Virus record (IMG/VR): IMGVR_UViG_3300042565_001473
Location: 1-28,671 of that record
DNA from: a virus
DNA: 28,671 nucleotides
Reading direction: 5' to 3' (one strand)
This document shows positions 1 to 9,766 of this stretch, piece after piece; the first letter of the stretch is position 1; each line of letters opens with the position of its first letter. The position numbers and the translations under genes were made by a program. A model generated the notes under the pieces. It made no database searches. It saw only the letters and a list, made by a program, of their open reading frames with translations, and was not told the origin of the DNA.

Positions 1-150
1 TGTGCGTTTCGTAACATCAAACGACCTGATAAAGCCGTTAAACATATCGAGTTGAATCGTTGGCGGTGGTATCTCTTCCATCTTGCTCAGAAGCCATTGG
101 TCTACGGTGGCTTGCCCGTACAATTTTACGCAGATTTGGTAGGTGGTCAT
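1..150 (-). CDS. Hypothetical protein, C-terminus cut by window edge
   Basis: This leftward frame is open for 50 codons from an ATG at 150 to the window edge, so only the N-terminal part is visible. The start is well supported: a strong Shine-Dalgarno-like GGAGGAG lies about 6 nt upstream, and the ATG overlaps the TGA of the zinc-ribbon-like gene upstream (ATGA), which indicates translational coupling. The visible protein begins MTTYQICVKLYGQATVDQWL and reads like a small soluble protein with no signal peptide or membrane segment. I do not recognise the family. It is the last visible gene of the early leftward operon. Confidence 0.6.
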   Translation of the reverse strand, partial: MTTYQICVKLYGQATVDQWLLSKMEEIPPPTIQLDMFNGFIRSFDVTKRT

Positions 151-335
151 TTGTTCTCCTCCCTACATTCACCACACCGCCCCATATCGTCAATGTCGTC
201 TGTCTCCCAAACCAACTCGCACTCGCCACAAGTGCATTCGCGTAGTCCTGATTCGCCATAGTCCACATTTGGGTCTGGCTGTTTCGGGTAGGGTTTAAGG
301 TTTTGCATATCCATATTCTTTTTTGATTTGTTCAA
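147..335 (-). CDS. Small zinc-ribbon-like protein
   Basis: The longest form is 62 residues. The C-terminal half carries a CTCGEC motif and, about 18 residues later, a CGEC motif, an arrangement fitting a small treble-clef or zinc-ribbon Zn site. The intervening and flanking stretch is acidic (ETDDIDDMG). Such mini zinc proteins are common in phage early operons, but no function can be assigned. The start is uncertain. The ATG at 335 gives a 41-nt overlap with the upstream alpha-CTD-like gene; in-frame ATGs at 314 and 308 reduce this to 20 or 14 nt, and 14 nt is the overlap seen for two other gene pairs here. The stop overlaps the next ATG as ATGA. Confidence 0.6.
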   Translation of the reverse strand: MNKSKKNMDMQNLKPYPKQPDPNVDYGESGLRECTCGECELVWETDDIDDMGRCGECREENK

Positions 336-552
336 GTTCGTTTATCGTGCCTTTGCCTGCGATGCTTTTCAGTTCGGGAATGAATCGCAGTTCCTCCAAG
401 TCAAACGAGACAAGGTCATACAATGTTACAAGGTTCAGGTCTGAAATTATCCGCTTTGCCCTGCTCGACAGCAAAACGCTATCGAGCAGGACTTTTTTTT
501 GCAGACGGACGATTACAGCCTTGTTGTGTCGGTGTATTTCGTAGGATGTCAT
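295..552 (-). CDS. RNA polymerase alpha-CTD-like protein (early module)
   Basis: This 85-residue protein has, from about residue 27 to 80, the layout of the RNA polymerase alpha C-terminal domain, a compact helix-hairpin-helix fold. It shows an S-S-R-A-K-R-I-I helix, then T-L-Y-DLV, then EEL, then a G-K-G loop followed by N-E-L-E-Q-I. E. coli RpoA has the same order (RSANCL, IGDLV, VELL, GKKSLTEI). Arg31 falls where RpoA Arg265, the main UP-element contact, would be. The assembly domains of RpoA are absent, so this is a stand-alone domain. By inference it could bind promoter DNA or bridge host sigma or activators. It starts 1 nt after the stop of the SSB-like gene. A second, different alpha-CTD-like protein lies at 9435-9758. 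A generic HhH DNA-binding protein is the alternative. Confidence 0.65.
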   Translation of the reverse strand: MTSYEIHRHNKAVIVRLQKKVLLDSVLLSSRAKRIISDLNLVTLYDLVSFDLEELRFIPELKSIAGKGTINELEQIKKEYGYAKP

Positions 553-553
553 A

Positions 554-907
554 TTAGAATGGAAGTGAGTCGCCTTCTATTTGTGATTGTGTCGGCTGAA
601 CTGGTGTTGTCGGTGCAGTCGCCTTAACTTTGACCTCAACTTTCCAGATTGACAAGGTGTTGAACACCTTGACCACATCGTACTGCCCCGACCACTCACG
701 ACCACGCAGGTTGATTTCGAATGATACGATGTCGTTCGGGTTGATGCCATCGAGCAGACTTACTTTCTCGCCCTGTGCTTCCAGACCGATGACTTGCGGG
801 TACTTTGACTCTGAGTCAATCTCAACATGGATTTCACGCTTTTGAAATCCTTTTTCGCCTACCGTCTGAGTCGGTAGGACTCGTACTACTTTACCTTGAA
901 TATTCAT
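554..907 (-). CDS. DUF3127 OB-fold protein, probable phage ssDNA-binding protein
   Basis: The 117-residue protein (start chosen at ATG 907, MNIQGKVVRVLP) has the DUF3127 pattern: an N-terminal GKVVRVLPTQTVGEKG, a KREIHVEI strand, KYPQVIGLEAQGEKVSLLD, and a FEINLRGREWSG strand. DUF3127 proteins are Bacteroidota OB-fold proteins. The C-terminus is a Pro/Thr/Gln linker ending in GDSLPF, which resembles the acidic-aromatic tip of bacterial SSB proteins (DDDIPF) that recruits partner enzymes. The gene sits directly after the YqaJ exonuclease, 5 nt apart, which fits a single-strand-binding partner for recombination and replication. The frame is open further upstream to 1075, but that part lies inside the exonuclease gene and is not expected to be coding. 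Confidence 0.75.
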   Translation of the reverse strand: MNIQGKVVRVLPTQTVGEKGFQKREIHVEIDSESKYPQVIGLEAQGEKVSLLDGINPNDIVSFEINLRGREWSGQYDVVKVFNTLSIWKVEVKVKATAPTTPVQPTQSQIEGDSLPF

Positions 908-912
908 AAAAA

Positions 913-1539
913 TTAAAATGTTACTTGTTGATGATACTTCTCGAATTTTGCCCAGAACTTGAGCAGGGCGTCCATTGTGGCTTTCAACTCCTCGATGATT
1001 TCGTTCCGCTCGACTCGGTAGATGTATAACGGCTTCGGTGCGAATCTGGGGTCGTAACTGATGAAATCCAACCACTGCAACTTCTCATTGACCAAAAAGT
1101 ATTGGTACACCTGCCATTTGTGGTCGTTTGGTAGTCCACCCATGCGAATCGTGCGTACATGCGTCTTGGTGCTGGGGCATTTGACTTCGACCGCACCGAT
1201 ATGGTCGGCAGTTAATCCATCTGGAGACATCCCTAACCAATCCAATTCATCGTGAATGCAAAACGCCACATCAATTAATTCTATGCCGGTCTGTGCGGTA
1301 TATTTCGCCTTGGCTTCGGGTTCTTGCTCAGTCCCCCACTTCATCGCCTCGGATTCGTAGTTGTTCTCGAGAGCGTCCCAAAGATGGTCGTCAAAACATT
1401 CCCGCTCGGCAATGAGTGCGTCCACTACGGGCAAGTTGTCTGACTTCATGATGTCTTTGGTTCGGCTTGAAGTTACCCGTCCGATACGCAAGGCATGCCA
1501 CTCCCGACTGCCCTGCTGTGTGTTGTCAATTACTTTCAT
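913..1539 (-). CDS. YqaJ-type phage recombination exonuclease
   Basis: This 208-residue protein is a lambda exonuclease/YqaJ-family nuclease of the PD-(D/E)XK fold. Visible motifs are the conserved acidic stretch GTEQEPEAKAKY (69-80), GMSPDG with the metal ligand Asp107, EVK (118-120) with the second acidic ligand and catalytic lysine, and WQVYQY (142-147) whose Gln143 matches the conserved glutamine of the family. These enzymes resect double-stranded DNA 5' to 3' and leave a 3' strand for an annealing protein. The length is usual for the family. Its start overlaps the upstream 170-residue gene by 14 nt, and the SSB-like DUF3127 gene follows, so the three probably form a recombination cassette. 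Confidence 0.9.
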   Translation of the reverse strand: MKVIDNTQQGSREWHALRIGRVTSSRTKDIMKSDNLPVVDALIAERECFDDHLWDALENNYESEAMKWGTEQEPEAKAKYTAQTGIELIDVAFCIHDELDWLGMSPDGLTADHIGAVEVKCPSTKTHVRTIRMGGLPNDHKWQVYQYFLVNEKLQWLDFISYDPRFAPKPLYIYRVERNEIIEELKATMDALLKFWAKFEKYHQQVTF

Positions 1540-2038
1540 TTTCTATTTTGGTTTTGCGTGAATCCTTATACGATAACATTGCCGATTTTGTTTCGGCATC
1601 AAACGACTGCCACAGAGCGACCAGAGACGGCATATCTGCACAGGCGTTAATCGCCTCGATTTGCTTTGTCCAGTCCTTTGGCTTTTCCGGTGTCGGCTTG
1701 GTCGCCTTTACCCGAATTGCGTCCGTTACATCGCCAAACGCTTTGACTCGTTCAACGCCTACGATAATTTTTTGACCTGCCCAGCGTTCAATTATGGGCG
1801 TACCTAATACCTTTGTGATGGTCTTGCAGTTGGTACGGTTTAAGATTATCGGCTTAGTTTCCTGCGTTCTGGCTACGATACAGAGCGAATCTTTTCCGTC
1901 CGAACCTTTGACCTTCTCCTGTGCAACGGATGCAATGGTGACGATGATTTGACCATAACTGCCATCGTTCTGAACGAGGTCGTGCGACCCGAAATAATCT
2001 GGGTTGGTCATTTTTTTCCAGTGTGTTGATGTTGTCAT
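1526..2038 (-). CDS. Conserved phage protein of recombination cassette, unknown function
   Basis: The 170-residue protein begins MTTSTHWKKMTNPDYFGSHD and has a beta-rich core with the pattern IIVTIASVAQEKV, KPIILNRTNCKTI and WAGQKIIVGVERVKAFG. This pattern (K-N/M-PDY-G-x-D, then PxILNxTNxKTI, then WxGxKI) recurs, from memory, in Bacteroidota phages and prophages next to recombination nucleases, with no established function. A C-terminal helical segment (WTKQIEAINACADMPSLVALW) follows a Pro/Lys linker. It overlaps the start of the exonuclease by 14 nt and is itself coupled by ATGA to the 37-residue gene upstream. No RecT, Erf or Redbeta signature is visible elsewhere in the window, so this is a candidate annealing partner or DNA-binding accessory; that role is inference only. 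Confidence 0.7.
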   Translation of the reverse strand: MTTSTHWKKMTNPDYFGSHDLVQNDGSYGQIIVTIASVAQEKVKGSDGKDSLCIVARTQETKPIILNRTNCKTITKVLGTPIIERWAGQKIIVGVERVKAFGDVTDAIRVKATKPTPEKPKDWTKQIEAINACADMPSLVALWQSFDAETKSAMLSYKDSRKTKIENESN

Positions 2039-2148
2039 TGTCCGAAGTGAATTAAGATGTTGTGAAAGATAAGCATGCCGATTCCCATCAGAATCGCTAC
2101 GAGCATGAAGGCACTGACCTTCTCGAAAAAGTTTGGTTGTTGTTTCAT
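2035..2148 (-). CDS. 37-residue single-span membrane microprotein
   Basis: A 37-codon ORF starts MKQQPNFFEKVSAFMLVAIL. An amphipathic or charged N-terminus (about 13 residues) is followed by one hydrophobic span of about 20 residues rich in Met, Leu, Ile and Gly, then a short tail ending HFGQ. Its stop overlaps the start of the conserved 170-residue gene (ATGA), and its start overlaps the stop of the 25-residue gene upstream in the same manner, so its place in the translationally coupled chain is strong support that it is real. No family is recognised. Small inner-membrane proteins in phage early operons can act in superinfection exclusion or host take-over, but nothing in the sequence fixes the role. 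Confidence 0.6.
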   Translation of the reverse strand: MKQQPNFFEKVSAFMLVAILMGIGMLIFHNILIHFGQ

Positions 2149-2222
2149 TTTTCTTTGTAAAATATAAGTGGAAGATAAACGGTTGTGATGAAGAGCCAGA
2201 TAACTTTGATGTAGCGTGTCAT
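2145..2222 (-). CDS. 25-residue membrane microprotein
   Basis: A 25-codon ORF (MTRYIKVIWLFITTVYLPLI, then FYKEK) consists of a short basic N-terminus, one hydrophobic span and a basic tail. It starts 4 nt after the stop of the 67-residue gene upstream, and its TGA overlaps the ATG of the next microprotein as ATGA. It fills a gap that would otherwise be the only empty space in this part of the operon. Two consecutive single-span microproteins could form a complex, but this is speculation. The small size keeps the call moderate. Confidence 0.5.
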   Translation of the reverse strand: MTRYIKVIWLFITTVYLPLIFYKEK

Positions 2223-2226
2223 AGTG

Positions 2227-2430
2227 TTAAGCGATTTCAACATACACGATGTAGTCACGGCAGTCGAAGAATTGACCATTTTCGAGTTGTTCAGGAACTT
2301 CTGCGTCAAATTCTAATTTGTCGAGCCATTCCAAAAGGTACTGGCGTGCTTGTTTGTCGCTGATGAACGATTCGGTACAATTGTACTGGCTGATGTGGCT
2401 TTGCTGGCTTTGAATTTTGATTGTTGTCAT
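2227..2430 (-). CDS. Hypothetical early protein (67 residues)
   Basis: The protein begins MTTIKIQSQQSHISQYNCTE, has a predicted helical middle (DKQARQYLLEWLDKLEFDAE) and ends with a short beta-like stretch (CRDYIVYVEIA). It is acidic and soluble, with no signal or membrane segment. I do not recognise the family. It is followed 4 nt later by the membrane microprotein ORF and preceded by about 59 nt of non-coding DNA containing a weak hairpin. The nearest upstream promoter candidate is the one at 2668-2700. Confidence 0.6.
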   Translation of the reverse strand: MTTIKIQSQQSHISQYNCTESFISDKQARQYLLEWLDKLEFDAEVPEQLENGQFFDCRDYIVYVEIA

Positions 2431-2489
2431 TGTCTGATGTGTTTAAGTTTTTTTTTGTGCGTACCGGATGCGCACCCCCCGTTTGAATG

Positions 2490-2642
2490 TTATGCGGTCA
2501 TGTATAACGCCTTTTCTCTTGCTGTTTTCAAGTATTCGACTTGATTCCAAAATTTAGCGATAAGCGTCTTAGCCTGCTCAACTGAATAACCCATTTTAGT
2601 TAATTCATTTTCTGTTCTTGTTTGCATTGTTGTCGTTGTCAT
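2490..2642 (-). CDS. Hypothetical small early protein (50 residues)
   Basis: The frame is open from 2699, but a candidate promoter (-7 box at 2668-2675) lies inside the upstream part, so the start is set at ATG 2642 (MTTTTMQTRTENELTKMGYS). A further in-frame ATG lies at 2627. The product is a short, helical, soluble protein with the segment SVEQAKTLIAKFWNQVEYLK. I do not recognise a family. It is the first gene downstream of that promoter and would head the distal early transcript. Confidence 0.5.
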   Translation of the reverse strand: MTTTTMQTRTENELTKMGYSVEQAKTLIAKFWNQVEYLKTAREKALYMTA

Positions 2643-2667
2643 ATCGTGTTGTTTAAATTTGATGAAG

Positions 2668-2700
2668 CAAAGATACAGCATTGTTTTGTTCCAATGCAAA
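2668..2700 (-). promoter_or_regulatory. Candidate Bacteroidota-type early promoter (leftward)
   Basis: On the minus strand the -7 box TATCTTTG occupies 2675-2668. Upstream there is TTTG at 2700-2697 with a spacer of 21 nt, and a TTG at 2694-2692 with a spacer of 16 nt; the consensus is TTTG-N19-TAnnTTTG. The box is exact and the spacing is off. It sits between the gene at 2735-3043 and the one at 2490-2642 and would drive the distal early genes. Confidence 0.5.
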
Positions 2701-2734
2701 TATTTTTTTTACTTTTCTCATAACTCGCTGATTT

Positions 2735-3043
2735 TCACAGAGAAATTTTTTTGTAGCAACCGAATAAAAAGCGTGTAACCTGCCTATCTATCCAGCGTTT
2801 CGCCTCGTCTCGCCCGGTTATTTCGATTGAATATGTGGCAATATTGACCATGTTCACCTTAAATAAATCAGGCGTGTCGGTTCTGGATACAATGGCTACC
2901 ATCAATCCGTTCAGGGTTACGCTGGTTCGACCGGTGTCTTGGTTGTGATTGTAGTCGTAATTCAAGCCAATGATGGCGGGGGCGGATGGTTCGAGTGCGT
3001 TTATGACGCTGTTTAAATCGGCTATTCGTGCGTTCTGTTTCAT
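2735..3043 (-). CDS. Hypothetical protein downstream of dnaB (102 residues)
   Basis: The start is set at ATG 3043 (MKQNARIADLNSVINALEPS), 1 nt after the DnaB stop; a longer frame to 3079 would overlap DnaB and is less likely. The protein has an N-terminal helix, a beta-rich middle (TSVTLNGLMVAIVSRTD, VNIATYSIEITG) and a basic C-terminal helix (KRWIDRQVTRFLFGCYKKIS). It is soluble. No family is recognised. Its tight junction with the helicase gene suggests a replication accessory role, which is inference from position only. About 90 nt of non-coding DNA follows, containing the promoter at 2668-2700. Confidence 0.6.
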   Translation of the reverse strand: MKQNARIADLNSVINALEPSAPAIIGLNYDYNHNQDTGRTSVTLNGLMVAIVSRTDTPDLFKVNMVNIATYSIEITGRDEAKRWIDRQVTRFLFGCYKKISL

Positions 3044-3044
3044 G

Positions 3045-4547
3045 TTAGAATGGTGCTTTGGTGTTGTCTTGGTTTTCAAAATCTAATCTTGGTGATGGCA
3101 GGTAGTTTGTTTTCGGCTCAGGCATTGGTGGTTGTGCTTGATAAGTCCTAAATGGGGTGTAAGGTGCAAATCTCGTATAAGCCTTCTCAAATCGCACCAT
3201 TATCGCCCCTAATCGCCCGTTCCTATGCTTGGAGATATGTATCTCCGCCATGTCGAGCGATGGTGTGCTTCCGTCCGTCATAAGTTCCTCTTTGTAGTAT
3301 TCAGGGCGGTGCGGAAAAATAACCATATCCGCATCCTGCTCAATCGCACCTGACTCCCTCAAATCCGACAGCATCGGAATACTTCCGCCCTTTCCTCTCG
3401 TTTCGACCGAGCGGTTCAACTGGCTCAAAAGCATTACGGGAATGTCGCATTCCTTTGCTATGCCCTTACATGCTCGGCTTATGCTTGATATTTCCTGCTC
3501 ACGATTGCCCGAAAATCCATCCCCTGCGTTCATGAGTTGCAAATAGTCGATAATTAGCATCTTGATCCCATGTTCCTGAACCATTCGAAGTACCTTTGCT
3601 TTGAGTTCCAACACGCTGATATTTGCCGAATCGTCAATGTATAACGGCAGGTCTTTTATCGCCAAACTGCTTTCCCTGAACTGGTGAAACTCATTCATCT
3701 GGACACGCCCAGACCGAATCTTCTCGCCCTCGATTTCAGCCTCCATAGATTGCAAACGGAAGACCAACTCATGACAACTCATTTCAAGCGAAAAAAACGC
3801 CACTGGATAGCCTTGTTTTGAGGCAGTGATAGCAAAGTATAGGGCAAGTGCTGTTTTGCCCATAGCGGGTCTCGCACCGATAACTATCAATGCCTGCTTC
3901 TGCCAACCTGATGTAAGTTCATCAAGTTGATAAAATCCAGTAGGAACGCCCGTAACGCCTTTTTTGGAATCCATCCGCTTTGATAATTCCACAATGTTTT
4001 CGAGTGCCAGACGCTCAAAAGATACCGCATGTTTCCTGAATATCGACTGGGTCAGATTGTACGCCTGTTCCTGAACATAGTTGAGCAGTTCGAACGCATC
4101 GGTAGTCGGGTCAAATCCTTTCAACTTTACATCGTTTGCAATGCGAATCAGGTCACGGGCGACATAGTGCTGATGAATAATCTTGATGTGATACGGAAGA
4201 TTGGCTGAACTAAACAGGCTATCTTTCATCATGGACAACTCGACCACATGCGAAATAAAATAGTTTTCCTCTTTGCTCTTCAACTCGCTGTAAACGGTTA
4301 TCAAGTCAATCGGCTTCTCTTCCATGTACATCTGCTCGATTAACTCGTAGATAAACTTGTTTTTGCTGATGAAGAACCAGTCCGATTTGCAGTTAGCAAA
4401 TATGTTTGGTAGTTCGTTTGTTTCGTACAGCATCGAGGATATTATCGCCTTTTCCGCTTCCTCGCTGTAAGGTGGCGTAACGCCCGGCATAAATCCGCTC
4501 TGGTCGATTTGCGGTTTCTCTTCGTACTTCTTTTTTCGTGTTGCCAT
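3045..4547 (-). CDS. dnaB: Replicative DNA helicase, DnaB family
   Basis: This 500-residue protein is a full-length DnaB-type hexameric replicative helicase. The N-terminal primase-interacting domain (about 25-130) has the typical EEAEKAIISSML start. The RecA-like motor follows a linker at 170-200 and contains Walker A GARPAMGKT (224-232), the FFSLEMS element (251-257), Walker B MLIIDYLQLM (330-339), and the DLRESGAIEQDAD segment with downstream KHRNG motif. It unwinds the phage replication fork. The start overlaps the stop of the initiator gene by 1 nt. A phage-encoded helicase next to an initiator is the classic initiator/helicase pair, so the phage probably directs its own origin opening and helicase loading. 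A Pro-rich tail ends the protein. Confidence 0.97.
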   Translation of the reverse strand: MATRKKKYEEKPQIDQSGFMPGVTPPYSEEAEKAIISSMLYETNELPNIFANCKSDWFFISKNKFIYELIEQMYMEEKPIDLITVYSELKSKEENYFISHVVELSMMKDSLFSSANLPYHIKIIHQHYVARDLIRIANDVKLKGFDPTTDAFELLNYVQEQAYNLTQSIFRKHAVSFERLALENIVELSKRMDSKKGVTGVPTGFYQLDELTSGWQKQALIVIGARPAMGKTALALYFAITASKQGYPVAFFSLEMSCHELVFRLQSMEAEIEGEKIRSGRVQMNEFHQFRESSLAIKDLPLYIDDSANISVLELKAKVLRMVQEHGIKMLIIDYLQLMNAGDGFSGNREQEISSISRACKGIAKECDIPVMLLSQLNRSVETRGKGGSIPMLSDLRESGAIEQDADMVIFPHRPEYYKEELMTDGSTPSLDMAEIHISKHRNGRLGAIMVRFEKAYTRFAPYTPFRTYQAQPPMPEPKTNYLPSPRLDFENQDNTKAPF

Positions 4548-5401
4548 TATTCTTGTGGTTCGGGGTTGTAAAATTGTGTTGTTCCTAATTGGTTTGACTT
4601 GTTAAATTCATCTGCCATCAATTGCTGTTTTCTCATTTTGTCATAGGTGAATGAGTTTTTTGCGTTCAAAATTTTCATAGCATTATCAACCACCCATCCC
4701 TCCTGAACGCCAGAAAAATCATTTACATAAGCCTTTACACCACCTTTTTTCAATTTCCAATTATTGTAGACCTTAATCATTTCAATCAATAGTCCTTCAA
4801 CGGGAAATCTCTTTTTAAGTTGCTCCCAATGGTCAAGGCTAAGCAATACGAGTGGAGAATCAAATTTAACGCAAGGCATTATTCCCTTTTTTGCCATTTC
4901 TTGAACAAACTCTTCGTCTGTTAATTTTTTGGCTAATTCAGTACGCTTTGGTTTTTTAGGCTTGGTACTTTTTTCATCAGGAACATTATTCGTAGGTAGC
5001 GAACTTTGTTCACCCAATAAGACTATACTATTATTAGTATTATTATGTATAGTATTATCTATATTATTATTGGGTGAACTTAGTTCATCTCTTTGTGGAA
5101 CTTTGTTCATCATCGGTGAACTTTGTTCATCACTTATTAGGCATTTCATCCATCCGTTTTCACTAATTTCAAGAATACCTGCATCAACTAAACGCTGAAT
5201 GCATTTCTGAATTCCTCGCTTTGTTATGTTCAACTCCTTTGCAAGTGTGCCACGAGAAGCGTAGCACCAACCCGGACATTTACTATCTGGGTTGGTTGCA
5301 AAAAAGTTGATACGCTCGATTAATACAGCCTCGAATACGGATAAATTATACTTTTGAATAATCCATAACCGAAGAATTATGTATTGGTCAGGATTGTTCA
5401 T
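4547..5401 (-). CDS. Replication initiator-like winged-helix protein
   Basis: The 284-residue protein has an N-terminal winged-helix domain (about 10-95): a helix-turn-helix SRGTLAKELNITKRGIQKCI and wing LVDAGILEISENG, as in phage replication proteins of the lambda O / DnaD-like type. An Asn/Ser-rich, low-complexity linker (about 96-155) follows, with repeated EQSS / ELSS peptides, then a basic patch and a C-terminal helical domain (about 155-284, ending in a QQLMADEFN helix) that could contact the helicase. The gene overlaps dnaB by 1 nt. The DNA encoding the linker is a set of iteron-like repeats around an A+T-rich core, so the gene probably contains its own origin, as lambda O does. The initiator role rests on domain layout and context, not on a confident family match. 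Confidence 0.75.
   Translation of the reverse strand: MNNPDQYIILRLWIIQKYNLSVFEAVLIERINFFATNPDSKCPGWCYASRGTLAKELNITKRGIQKCIQRLVDAGILEISENGWMKCLISDEQSSPMMNKVPQRDELSSPNNNIDNTIHNNTNNSIVLLGEQSSLPTNNVPDEKSTKPKKPKRTELAKKLTDEEFVQEMAKKGIMPCVKFDSPLVLLSLDHWEQLKKRFPVEGLLIEMIKVYNNWKLKKGGVKAYVNDFSGVQEGWVVDNAMKILNAKNSFTYDKMRKQQLMADEFNKSNQLGTTQFYNPEPQE
4981..5129. repeat. Iteron-like repeats and A+T-rich core: candidate replication origin
   Basis: Three exact copies of GAACTTTGTTCA (5001-5012, 5098-5109, 5118-5129), a variant GAACTTAGTTCA (5076-5087, centre of a perfect 13-nt palindrome) and a degenerate copy at 4981-4992 are present. Start-to-start spacing is 20, 75, 22 and 20 nt, so neighbours are about two helical turns apart. 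Two 20-nt arms (5001-5020 and 5067-5086, 18 of 20 complementary) flank a 46-nt core (5021-5066) with only 7 G/C bases. The whole lies inside the initiator gene. This fits an origin with initiator-binding iterons and a DNA unwinding element. Confidence 0.7.
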
Positions 5402-5597
5402 TTGTTGAATTTAATTCAATTATAGCCTTACATTCCACAAAACTTATACATCCGGGTTCATCAATAGTAATTTCATTCATCATTTTAAGATGAGTATCTA
5501 ACAATTCATCTGAACATATAAAAACACCTAAAATGTTTTCATAATCTGGATGGCTTTGAATTACAACCCGTGCATCAACTACTTGTACTTTTTTCAT
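5388..5597 (-). CDS. Hypothetical early protein (69 residues) with structured leader
   Basis: The start is set at ATG 5597 (MKKVQVVDARVVIQSHPDYE); the frame extends to 5645 but into the structured leader. The protein is small and acidic with a beta-alpha-beta feel (VVIQSHP, ILGVFICSDELLDTHLKMMN, SFVECKAIIELN). No family is recognised. It overlaps the initiator start by 14 nt. It is the first gene after the strongest early promoter, and its roughly 120-nt leader contains several potential helices, so its expression may be controlled after transcription starts. A regulatory role is possible but unproven. Confidence 0.55.
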   Translation of the reverse strand: MKKVQVVDARVVIQSHPDYENILGVFICSDELLDTHLKMMNEITIDEPGCISFVECKAIIELNSTNEQS

Positions 5598-5718
5598 TTT
5601 ACTTAAAATTAAAAACCCCCGAAACAAGCGGTGAGAGTCGCTCATTTCAAGGGGTTTGGTTTCCGTTAAGGAAGTTTTTCGTATCCGCTCTCACCCGGAT
5701 ATCCTGACTGATTCAGGA
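5598..5718 (-). promoter_or_regulatory. Structured 5' leader with two crossing helices
   Basis: In the leftward transcript, helix A pairs GGTGAGAG (5695-5688) with CTCTCACC (5637-5630). Helix B pairs AAACCCC (5657-5651) with GGGGTTT (5619-5613). The order A-B-A'-B' means the two either form a pseudoknot or exclude each other. A 6-bp hairpin TCCTGA/TCAGGA (5718-5702) starts 5 nt after the -7 box, and a small TTCC/GGAA hairpin sits at 5673-5661. B' lies about 15 nt before the start codon and is followed by a T-rich run, so attenuation or translational control is plausible. No known riboswitch class is recognised. Confidence 0.45.
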
Positions 5719-5722
5719 ACTG

Positions 5723-5753
5723 CAAATATACAAATTAATTCACGACCTTCAAA
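5723..5753 (-). promoter_or_regulatory. Bacteroidota-type promoter, exact consensus (leftward)
   Basis: On the minus strand TTTG (5753-5750) is followed by exactly 19 nt and then TATATTTG (5730-5723), matching the Bacteroidota consensus TTTG-N19-TAnnTTTG at every defined position. It overlaps the 3' end of the RusA-like gene and points into the early replication genes (initiator, DnaB). Transcription would start near 5717, at the foot of the hairpin 5702-5718. Confidence 0.75.
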
Positions 5754-6103
5754 ATTATCTTGCCATCCTTGCCCCAAATCTTGCGGGCGTAAAACTCATG
5801 AACTCCGCTGTCATCCTTGCCAAAACAATCCATGAACCCTTTGACTAAGTTGTCCAAATCTGGCTTGTATCGGTGTGGCTGACCCTCCAACTCCTTGCGT
5901 TGCTTCTGGGTGTAACTAATCGGGAACGGCATGACAAAGGTTATTTCAAACCGCTCTGGGCATTCCTTCACGCCTACACCACGCAGGAACATTCGTAACG
6001 CTGTCTTATACCTCGCATACCTCTGGAACGGCTCGCTGAACTTCGCCCTTTGCGTAGTTCGAACCGCACCCATTCCGATAATGTCAAATTCGAATTCCTG
6101 CAT
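5735..6103 (-). CDS. rusA: RusA-family Holliday junction resolvase
   Basis: This 122-residue protein has the RusA core: KPDLDNLVKGFMD (80-92) followed by GKDDSGV (96-101), giving the acidic residues (Asp82, Asp84, Asp98 region) that bind Mg2+ in this family. RusA enzymes form dimers that cut four-way DNA junctions, which phages use to resolve recombination or replication intermediates before packaging. The length is close to the usual 120 residues. It is the first gene of the leftward early module and faces the rightward lipoprotein gene across a 66-nt divergent spacer. The main early promoter lies across its last codons. Confidence 0.92.
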   Translation of the reverse strand: MQEFEFDIIGMGAVRTTQRAKFSEPFQRYARYKTALRMFLRGVGVKECPERFEITFVMPFPISYTQKQRKELEGQPHRYKPDLDNLVKGFMDCFGKDDSGVHEFYARKIWGKDGKIILKVVN

Positions 6104-6169
6104 AATGTAAAATTAAACGGAATCGGTGTAACAAAGTTTCATCAAGTCCGTTAAAACTGAAAAAATATT

Positions 6170-6559
6170 ATGAAAAAAACACTTTTAATCATCGCTCTGG
6201 CAACGCTTACGAGTTGTGCCACAATCACTTCCAGCATGAAGCAGGAAGTAACTATCAATGTTAAACCTGACCATGCTAAAGTTTATGTGAACGGCAACAA
6301 GGTCGGAGAAGGGTCATGCGTTGCGGAAGTACCCGTAAAAAAACGCAACACTATTGTAGTCAAGGCTGAGGGATACGAAAACGCTCAAATCAAAACTAAC
6401 CGCCAAATCCGACCCGGCTACCTTATCGGGAATATCGGGATGTGTTTCGTGCCGTATGTAAACTTCTTTGGCTTACCAAGTTTGATTGTTGATGCGTGTA
6501 CGGGTGCGTGGTACAAGCAGGAAGAATCGGATTATTATTTTGATTTGGATAAAAAATAA
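6170..6559 (+). CDS. PEGA-domain-like lipoprotein, possible moron
   Basis: The 129-residue protein begins with a lipoprotein signal peptide MKKTLLIIALATLTSC with lipobox LTSC and acylated Cys16. Residues 27-75 look like a PEGA domain (TINVKPDHAKVYVNGNKVGEG, then VPVKKRNTIVVKAEGYE). A glycine-rich hydrophobic segment (RPGYLIGNIGMCFVPYVNFFGLPSLIV) follows. Proteins of this layout are common in Bacteroidota envelopes. It stands alone between the divergent early and late modules and is closed off by a strong terminator, the layout of a moron: an accessory gene expressed separately from phage functions. Superinfection exclusion or envelope modification is plausible but inferred. Confidence 0.75.
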   Translation: MKKTLLIIALATLTSCATITSSMKQEVTINVKPDHAKVYVNGNKVGEGSCVAEVPVKKRNTIVVKAEGYENAQIKTNRQIRPGYLIGNIGMCFVPYVNFFGLPSLIVDACTGAWYKQEESDYYFDLDKK

Positions 6560-6657: not shown

Positions 6658-6665
6658 TATATTTG
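6658..6665 (+). promoter_or_regulatory. Late promoter -7 box before the terminase genes
   Basis: TATATTTG matches the TAnnTTTG -7 box. No TTTG lies 19 nt upstream; that position is occupied by the terminator stem, so the -33 element is weak or replaced by an activator site. The surrounding TTTTTTCGTAT(A/C)TTTGC is repeated before the tape measure gene (9761-9775), suggesting a shared late-promoter variant. A small AGTT/AACT stem (6669-6681) starts 4 nt after the box. Confidence 0.55.
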
Positions 6666-6686: not shown

Positions 6687-7211
6687 ATGGCAAAAACGAA
6701 AAAGCCAATAGGTCAAGCCGAGACCGAAACAGAGGCAAAACCAAAGCACGCAGGAGGCAGACCGACTATTTATACCCCAGAACTTGCAAAGCGGATTTGT
6801 ACCGAAATTGGGCAGTCCGAAAAAGGTCTGCATAGGCTTCATCGGGAGTTAGATTGGTTTCCTGACCCATCAACAATAATGGATTGGATTGACGACAAGC
6901 CAGAGTTTTCCTTACAATACGCACGGGCAAAGGCACTTCAAGCGGATTTTATGGGAGACAATGTGCTTATAATTTCAGACGATTCGAGCCAAGACGAAAT
7001 ATTCTCTCCCAACGGAAACCGAATCGAAAATCGGGAATTTACGAGTCGTTCAAAATTGCGTGTCGAAACTCGAATGTGGCTAATGGAAAGACTCGCCCCG
7101 AAAAAGTACGGCAAGCAGGTTGATGCAGATACGGAACAAAAAGACTACCAACCGCCTCAAATTAACCTGCATATTTCGCCCGAAGCAATCCGCAAAGCAT
7201 CGGAGGAATAA
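6687..7211 (+). CDS. terS: Terminase small subunit
   Basis: The 174-residue protein has a GRPTIYTPELAKRICTEIG motif at about 24-42, the N-terminal DNA-binding helix-turn-helix typical of phage terminase small subunits, followed by STIMDWIDDKPEFSLQYARA and a helical oligomerisation part with KLRVETRMWLMERLAPKKYG. TerS recognises the packaging site and recruits the large subunit. It is the first gene of the late module and overlaps terL by 1 nt. The N-terminal 20 residues are a charged, Lys/Glu-rich tail. A pac or cos site is often within or next to terS, but no clear repeats marking one were found here. Confidence 0.9.
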   Translation: MAKTKKPIGQAETETEAKPKHAGGRPTIYTPELAKRICTEIGQSEKGLHRLHRELDWFPDPSTIMDWIDDKPEFSLQYARAKALQADFMGDNVLIISDDSSQDEIFSPNGNRIENREFTSRSKLRVETRMWLMERLAPKKYGKQVDADTEQKDYQPPQINLHISPEAIRKASEE

Positions 7212-9413: not shown

Positions 9414-9434
9414 GGAGGTTGCGTTTAAGGGGGT

Positions 9435-9758
9435 ATGATAACAAGAACCGAATACGAAAAAGCATTAAAAATTGTCAAAGAATATAATAGGCAATCTATT
9501 TTTGAAAAGACAATTGGTCATTATGACAATGACAAAGAATTAATAAAAAAATCCCCTTTGCATGAATTTTTGTCTATTAGGGTTGCAAATGCTTTGTTTT
9601 CTCAAAACGGCATTTATATTAGTAGGTGGGATTCAAAAGTTGAAGATTTATCAAAATTATCTCGAGCCGAATTGTTTAGAATCAGGGGTATAAGACATAA
9701 GGCAATTATAGAATTAGAGGCTTTGTGCGAATTGGCTGGGATTAGTTTATTGCCGTAA
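9435..9758 (+). CDS. RNA polymerase alpha-CTD-like protein (late module)
   Basis: The 107-residue protein has an N-terminal helical segment (TEYEKALKIVKEYNRQ) and a C-terminal domain (about 41-105) closely resembling RpoA alpha-CTD. LSIRVANAL matches LTVRSANCL of E. coli RpoA, with Arg49 and Asn52 at the places of the UP-element contacts Arg265 and Asn268. VEDLSKLSRAELFRIRGI then matches the IGDLV...VELL segment, and IIELEALCELAGISL the last helix. A loop of about 8 extra residues lies between the first two helices. A purine-rich AAGGGGG precedes the start. The gene is visibly more A+T-rich than its neighbours, a hint of separate origin. A role in recruiting or redirecting host polymerase is inference. 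Confidence 0.7.
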   Translation: MITRTEYEKALKIVKEYNRQSIFEKTIGHYDNDKELIKKSPLHEFLSIRVANALFSQNGIYISRWDSKVEDLSKLSRAELFRIRGIRHKAIIELEALCELAGISLLP

Positions 9759-9766
9759 TTTTTTCG

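Follow-up and report, generated by a model that had tools for sequence, protein, structure and literature searches.

Whether a phage can carry a free-standing version of the C-terminal domain (CTD) of the bacterial RNA polymerase alpha subunit, and what such a protein would do there, is the question raised by an 85-residue reading frame, P0001, at one end of a 28,671-base virus record, the whole of which is called the window here. An earlier note on this DNA had proposed that the protein is a stand-alone alpha-CTD-like domain without the assembly domain of RpoA, with the alpha-CTD layout at residues ~27 to 80 and an arginine (Arg31) at the position of the DNA-contacting Arg265 of Escherichia coli alpha.

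Homologues of P0001 are present in 14 IMG/VR contigs, 13 of them full-length (95-100% identity; alignment A1 holds all 13) and one truncated (L014, left out of A1). One of the full-length copies is identical to the window in DNA, and the remaining 12 differ from it by 12 to 18 synonymous and 3 to 7 nonsynonymous changes, mainly at third codon positions. Because homologues occur in 14 contigs and most of the change is synonymous, P0001 is a real gene and not a chance frame. It begins 1 nt after the gene of a single-stranded DNA-binding protein (SSB), which lies directly upstream on the same strand (Table 1), and it adjoins SSB in 14 of 15 contigs with a close SSB, the 15th contig stopping 29 nt past SSB. 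Judging from its neighbours, P0001 would be an early gene. A profile search found P0001 in 3 of the 28 records searched, all close kin, tblastn gave no match in phages at E ≤ 10 and only three chance-level matches in plasmids, and the genome contigs searched with P0001 and with the helicase gave no match. A two-family alignment used as query (A2, three of the 13 full-length homologues plus the L119 protein described below) returned the same 14 contigs and nothing further. The small Cys-rich ORF that overlaps P0001 at its end has a copy in the sibling contig L105 (86% identical), where it is followed by a gene for a 65-aa HTH_3 regulator (L105:14262-14459), two genes downstream of P0001. This HTH_3 gene is apparently missing from the window (positions 1-335), where, read by eye, a DnaA-C-like ORF seems to come next.

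Table 1. Positions of P0001, its predicted parts, its neighbours and a second alpha-CTD-like frame in the window.
Feature	Position	Strand	Basis
P0001, predicted alpha-CTD-like protein, 85 aa, ATG to TAA	295..552	-	Conservation in 14 IMG/VR contigs, purifying selection, AF2 model
P0001, predicted basic N-terminal helix, residues 3-20	493..546	-	DSSP of AF2 model and charge
P0001, predicted alpha-CTD-like helix-hairpin-helix domain, residues 27-80	313..474	-	HMM (27-81), hhalign (23-82), Foldseek and VIA matches
P0001, Arg31 codon, at E. coli alpha Arg265 position	460..462	-	HMM, pairwise and hhalign alignments
P0001, G66-K67-G68-T69, at alpha G296-K297-K298-S299, after 4-residue insertion	346..357	-	Alignments
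SSB, DUF3127 type, phrog_4932	554..910	-	Pfam E 1.3e-18, PHROG E 7.9e-24
YqaJ/RecE-like exonuclease	913..1539	-	Pfam E 2.2e-19, phrog_149 E 4e-28
phrog_21613 protein	1526-2038	-	PHROG
DnaB-type replicative helicase	3045-4547	-	Profile annotation
Small Cys-rich ORF overlapping P0001 end, weak zinc-ribbon resemblance	147..335	-	Pfam E 0.0071, below cut-off
P0002, second alpha-CTD-like ORF, 107 aa, before tape measure gene, in insertion cassette	9435..9758	+	HMM; identical in 10/10 carriers

Standard searches of P0001 against Pfam, NCBIfam, PHROGs and PDB sequences gave nothing relevant. The direct match to the Pfam alpha-CTD family (PF03118) that the earlier note had expected was not obtained: neither P0001 nor the whole contig matched it at E ≤ 10, the Pfam gathering cut-off was not reached, and PF03118 was reached by the relative L119 alone. 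With a permissive threshold this model finds matches in all 14 control genomes, archaea included (above cut-off in 9), so its weak matches are non-specific. Against a home-made alpha-CTD profile of 16 sequences (L110 was left out for its similarity to other members), P0001 scored 3.8 bits with HMMER, a value matched by 21 shuffles in a set of 3000 and 33 in a set of 5000, and it fared worse against shuffles when the HMM was augmented with phage sequences (148 of 5000 as high). Pairwise local alignment gave p 0.013 or better against seven of the 16 alpha-CTDs and not against the other nine.

The layout of alpha-CTD can nevertheless be made out. In the HMMER alignment, residues 27 to 81 are co-linear with profile positions 12 to 62, with R31 at the conserved arginine and GKGT at GkkS, and the motif order of alpha-CTD (LSxRA, then DL, then G-K-x-T/S, then EL) is kept. 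A profile-profile alignment of the P0001 family (hhalign, L119 protein left out) covers 56 columns in an unchanged register and puts 4 inserted residues in front of GKG; the proposed layout at residues ~27 to 80 is thus borne out by both methods. The hhalign comparison gave E 0.00066 (for a single comparison) and a probability of 27; none of 200 column shuffles reached the score of 22.2, by a narrow margin (best shuffle 21.7). When 174 real or chance ORFs of 70 to 200 aa from the window and eight chosen loci, P0001 included, were ranked in this way, P0001 came fourth, after an alpha-CTD-like ORF of L103, P0002 and one unrelated ORF, which outscores it by 0.24. From its sequence, the resemblance of P0001 to alpha-CTD is therefore rated marginal.

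A bridge to the family is provided by another phage, IMGVR_UViG_3300028569_000070 (G001), whose terminase is 80% identical to that of the window phage. Its 83-aa ORF L119:4001-4249 matches PF03118 (2.3e-6 in its record), passing the cut-off by 0.1 bit (23.9 vs 23.8 bits), and the L119 protein aligns with P0001 over most of its length at 22% identity (p about 0.01). A positional orthology of the two was not upheld. In G001 a zinc-ribbon-like ORF comes next after the SSB gene, P0001 being absent from that place, and the alpha-CTD ORF lies ~3.9 kb further along the same strand; because the gene position differs, the L119 protein is taken as a relative of the same kind, with orthology unproven.

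The predicted structure turns on this relative. Modeled without the L119 protein, P0001 gave an AF2 model of pLDDT 55 and pTM 0.34 and no meaningful structural match, and with the L119 protein and four P0001 variants aligned, pLDDT rose to 87.5 and pTM to 0.72 (four of five models above 82 pLDDT, one at 42). The confident predicted fold of P0001 is thus dependent on a single bridging sequence. Searched against the PDB with Foldseek, the model gave 177 matches under E 10 (best E 0.1, none at E ≤ 0.001), of which ranks 1 to 11 are without exception RNA polymerase structures containing an alpha chain (nine bacterial, two plastid), followed by RAD51C at rank 12 and Y-family polymerases. Isolated alpha-CTD domains superpose at 1.5 to 2.2 Å over 56 to 61 columns, for example 1z3e_B (1.9 Å, 61 columns) and 9zum_D, an alpha-CTD on AT-rich DNA (1.7 Å, 60 columns). 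In VIA, rows 1 to 40 are alpha subunits only (Z 7.7 to 6.2; top row 1z3e, a complex with Spx) and RAD51 is the first other family (Z 6.2); a Z below 8 can reflect a common arrangement, and the VIA list leaves room for families beyond it. The two outcomes that the earlier note had named as damaging to its proposal, a clearly better-fitting helix-hairpin-helix (HhH) family and a model without the alpha-CTD fold, did not show up here, although RAD51 and Y-family polymerases are present at lower rank. Among viral structures in BFVD the top row is nameless, proteins named as RNA polymerase alpha C-terminal from uncultured Caudovirales phages fill the other five of the top six places, and later rows include proteins of Rhodococcus phage Finch and Mycobacterium phage Mithril; as these matches have E 0.26 and above, they indicate a likeness to phage proteins by predicted fold, not a close one. 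Taking the models together with HMM and hhalign, P0001 very probably has an alpha-CTD-like fold, and the proposal of a stand-alone domain holds at the level of a prediction. P0001 is not an RpoA: its 85 residues comprise the CTD-like part only, without the N-terminal assembly domain.

What this surface would contact can be read in part from the alignments, for which we assume the E. coli residue numbering. R31, G66, T69 and E72 of P0001 correspond to R265, G296, S299 and E302 of E. coli alpha, and the placement of Arg31 opposite Arg265, as claimed before, is agreed on by the alignments. D259 and E261 are sigma-contact acids of E. coli alpha, and N268 is a DNA contact of its CTD. The two acids are replaced in P0001 (D259 by S25, E261 by L27), as are, by alignment, the other DNA contacts N268 (R34), K291 (F57), N294 (E60) and K298 (G68). 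According to one account, R265 and N294 of alpha-CTD enter the minor groove while K291 and K298 touch the backbone (PMC7822876). With R31 kept and the other contacts changed, P0001 therefore appears to have retained the key arginine on an otherwise remodelled surface. P0001 has a pI of 9.26 and a net charge of +4 over its first 22 residues; the L119 protein (pI 9.13) and P0002 (pI 9.07) are similarly basic, against a pI of 5.80 for the E. coli alpha-CTD segment used. The added N-terminal helix and this basic character suggest a domain adapted to stay on DNA when no polymerase tethers it, and we lean, by a little, toward P0001 binding DNA through its alpha-CTD face.

Compared with the CTD of bacterial alpha (PF03118), P0001 shares the predicted fold, the helix order, Arg at 265, Gly at 296, Glu at 302 and Ser/Thr at 299; it differs in having no alpha-NTD, in the 4-residue insertion before GKG and the added basic N-terminal helix, in the loss of N268, N294, K298 and the sigma-contact acids, and in escaping recognition by the Pfam model. 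It fits the phage stand-alone alpha-CTD kind, being small, with a recognizable part that is the predicted alpha-CTD fold and with no polymerase core domains. Proteins annotated as RNA polymerase alpha subunit C-terminal (domain-containing) in other phages (A0A6J5N2B9, 98 aa; A0A6J5M7I6; A0A6J5QDR9; A0A2P1JY10 of Finch; A0A5Q2WLP1 of Mithril) likewise have an alpha-CTD domain and are of small or medium size, with 17-28% identity to P0001 over the match (E 0.4 and above), and some are longer (Finch, 240 aa). The 'RNA polymerase subunit alpha' of Bacillus phage vB_BmeM-Goe8 (QDP42789.1) is also a phage-borne alpha-CTD without full-length RpoA, but is ~210 aa long, ends in a canonical alpha-CTD and comes from a phage with a Bacillus host. 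A small bacterial hypothetical protein, PRK07758/NF005841, matches P0002 weakly (E 0.11) and P0001 not at all. Phage-encoded alpha-CTD proteins are thus already annotated in several phages, and P0001 joins them as a divergent member. Alpha-CTD domains that are not part of RpoA occur here and there in phage genomes, labelled automatically, and no study of the function of the free phage proteins was found in the open-access literature. A different architecture was seen in record G017, where a 493-aa phage protein (L098:112-1593, minus strand) has an N-terminal alpha-CTD-like segment (PF03118 34.9 bits, above cut-off) joined to a phrog_15609 region.

How such a protein might act is a more speculative matter. 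Our first choice is that P0001, a predicted free-standing alpha-CTD-like HhH domain with a basic N-terminal helix, encoded with a phage SSB and a recombination exonuclease, would bind A/T-rich minor grooves by the same face as alpha, Arg31 entering the groove in the role of Arg265, and that the basic helix would supply the affinity which RpoA gains from polymerase tethering. Bound to A/T-rich upstream DNA, the protein could occupy or reshape the region upstream of promoters and so alter the promoter choice of host RNA polymerase. As an explanation this is tentative, and transcription as the target is likewise conceivable rather than probable, the effect on it being speculative. The take-over proposed in the earlier note, by competition with host alpha at promoters or by its replacement there, is so far unsupported. 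The lost sigma-contact acids and the position of the gene among those for recombination and replication count against a transcription role. In a sigma-70-type scan of positions 1 to 6200, promoter-like sites were no commoner than in shuffles (13 vs 12.3). If P0001 does act on promoters, it would represent a novel means of redirecting host transcription, and the protein is easy to test, with 85 residues and one obvious residue, Arg31, to change.

A close rival, itself possible but somewhat doubtful, makes P0001 an accessory of recombination or replication, whose HhH domain would bind DNA without sequence preference, or junctions, and aid the adjoining SSB and exonuclease; it would have no transcription role, and its alpha-CTD likeness would reflect a shared HhH-type fold. 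The genes that precede P0001 on the same strand (DnaB-type helicase, phrog_21613 protein, YqaJ exonuclease, SSB) suit this reading, as do the basic protein without sigma-contact acids and the RAD51 N-terminal domain and Y-family polymerases among the lower structural matches; the model, however, ranks alpha-CTD above other HhH folds, and the motif order of alpha-CTD is retained. P0001 might instead not be a strong DNA binder, using its alpha-CTD-like surface to capture and divert the usual contacts of alpha, be they host or phage activators or sigma. Alpha-CTD does serve as a contact surface for regulators such as Spx, whose complex tops the VIA rows, and the sibling contig has an HTH_3 regulator gene two genes downstream of P0001; the sigma-contact acids are lost, however, and the window keeps P0001 yet seems to be without the HTH gene, and we regard this adapter role as improbable.

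There is, finally, a small probability that P0001 is an unrelated small helical protein, with no likeness to alpha-CTD, whose model was led by the single bridging sequence. The pLDDT of 55 without the bridge, the marginal sequence scores and the mere 22% identity between bridge and P0001 all point this way. Against this, hhalign with the family's own profile and no bridge scores above all 200 column shuffles, if narrowly, and each method returns one and the same co-linear register of 56 columns.

As to the host in which binding to upstream DNA would take place, the element TAnnTTTG, presumably the -7 promoter element of Bacteroidota, occurs 37 times on both strands of the window, where shuffles average 23.7 ± 4.6 and none of 100 has as many; copies immediately precede the genes at 6687, 9833 and 25116. 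On account of this enrichment a Bacteroidota host is likely. Copies at 6658, 9767, 18321, 18727 and 24997 were noted at or near gene starts.

The second frame of the window, P0002, is more clearly alpha-CTD-like by sequence than P0001, with 13.2 bits against the alpha-CTD profile (0 of 3000 shuffles as high) and weak rpoA matches in NCBIfam and PDB. Descent of one of the two proteins from the other was considered and dropped, the pair having no detectable similarity (p 0.76). A wider proposal covers both: as free, basic, trans-acting binders of promoter-upstream DNA in probably Bacteroidota phages, P0001 from the replication/recombination block and P0002 from a mobile cassette in the virion region, they would take the place of host alpha-CTD or compete with it, and so shift polymerase between host and phage promoters. 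We consider this unlikely as a whole. It would differ from the strategies by which phages are known to remove (Rac) or block alpha-CTD; one source attributes a cleavage of alpha-CTD to Rac and also mentions Gp67 and Ogr (PMC7552054).

At the slot before the tape measure gene, the window and 23 aligned loci hold P0002 in 10 cases and another ORF in two, and the slot is empty in 12. The P0002 cassette (~9421-9759, 339 nt) has zero nucleotide differences among the 10 carriers, while the 345 columns upstream differ among them by 4.8% on average and by up to 7.8%; as the cassette is identical and its upstream flanks have diverged, this looks like a recent spread of the cassette. One carrier, L048, is probably the same phage as the window, since its flanks match too. 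With two unlike alpha-CTD versions, one of them apparently spread recently, this phage group is a useful one. L060 and L064 have a different stretch in the P0002 slot, which seems to hold a short ORF, and the slot therefore looks like a site for accessory genes.
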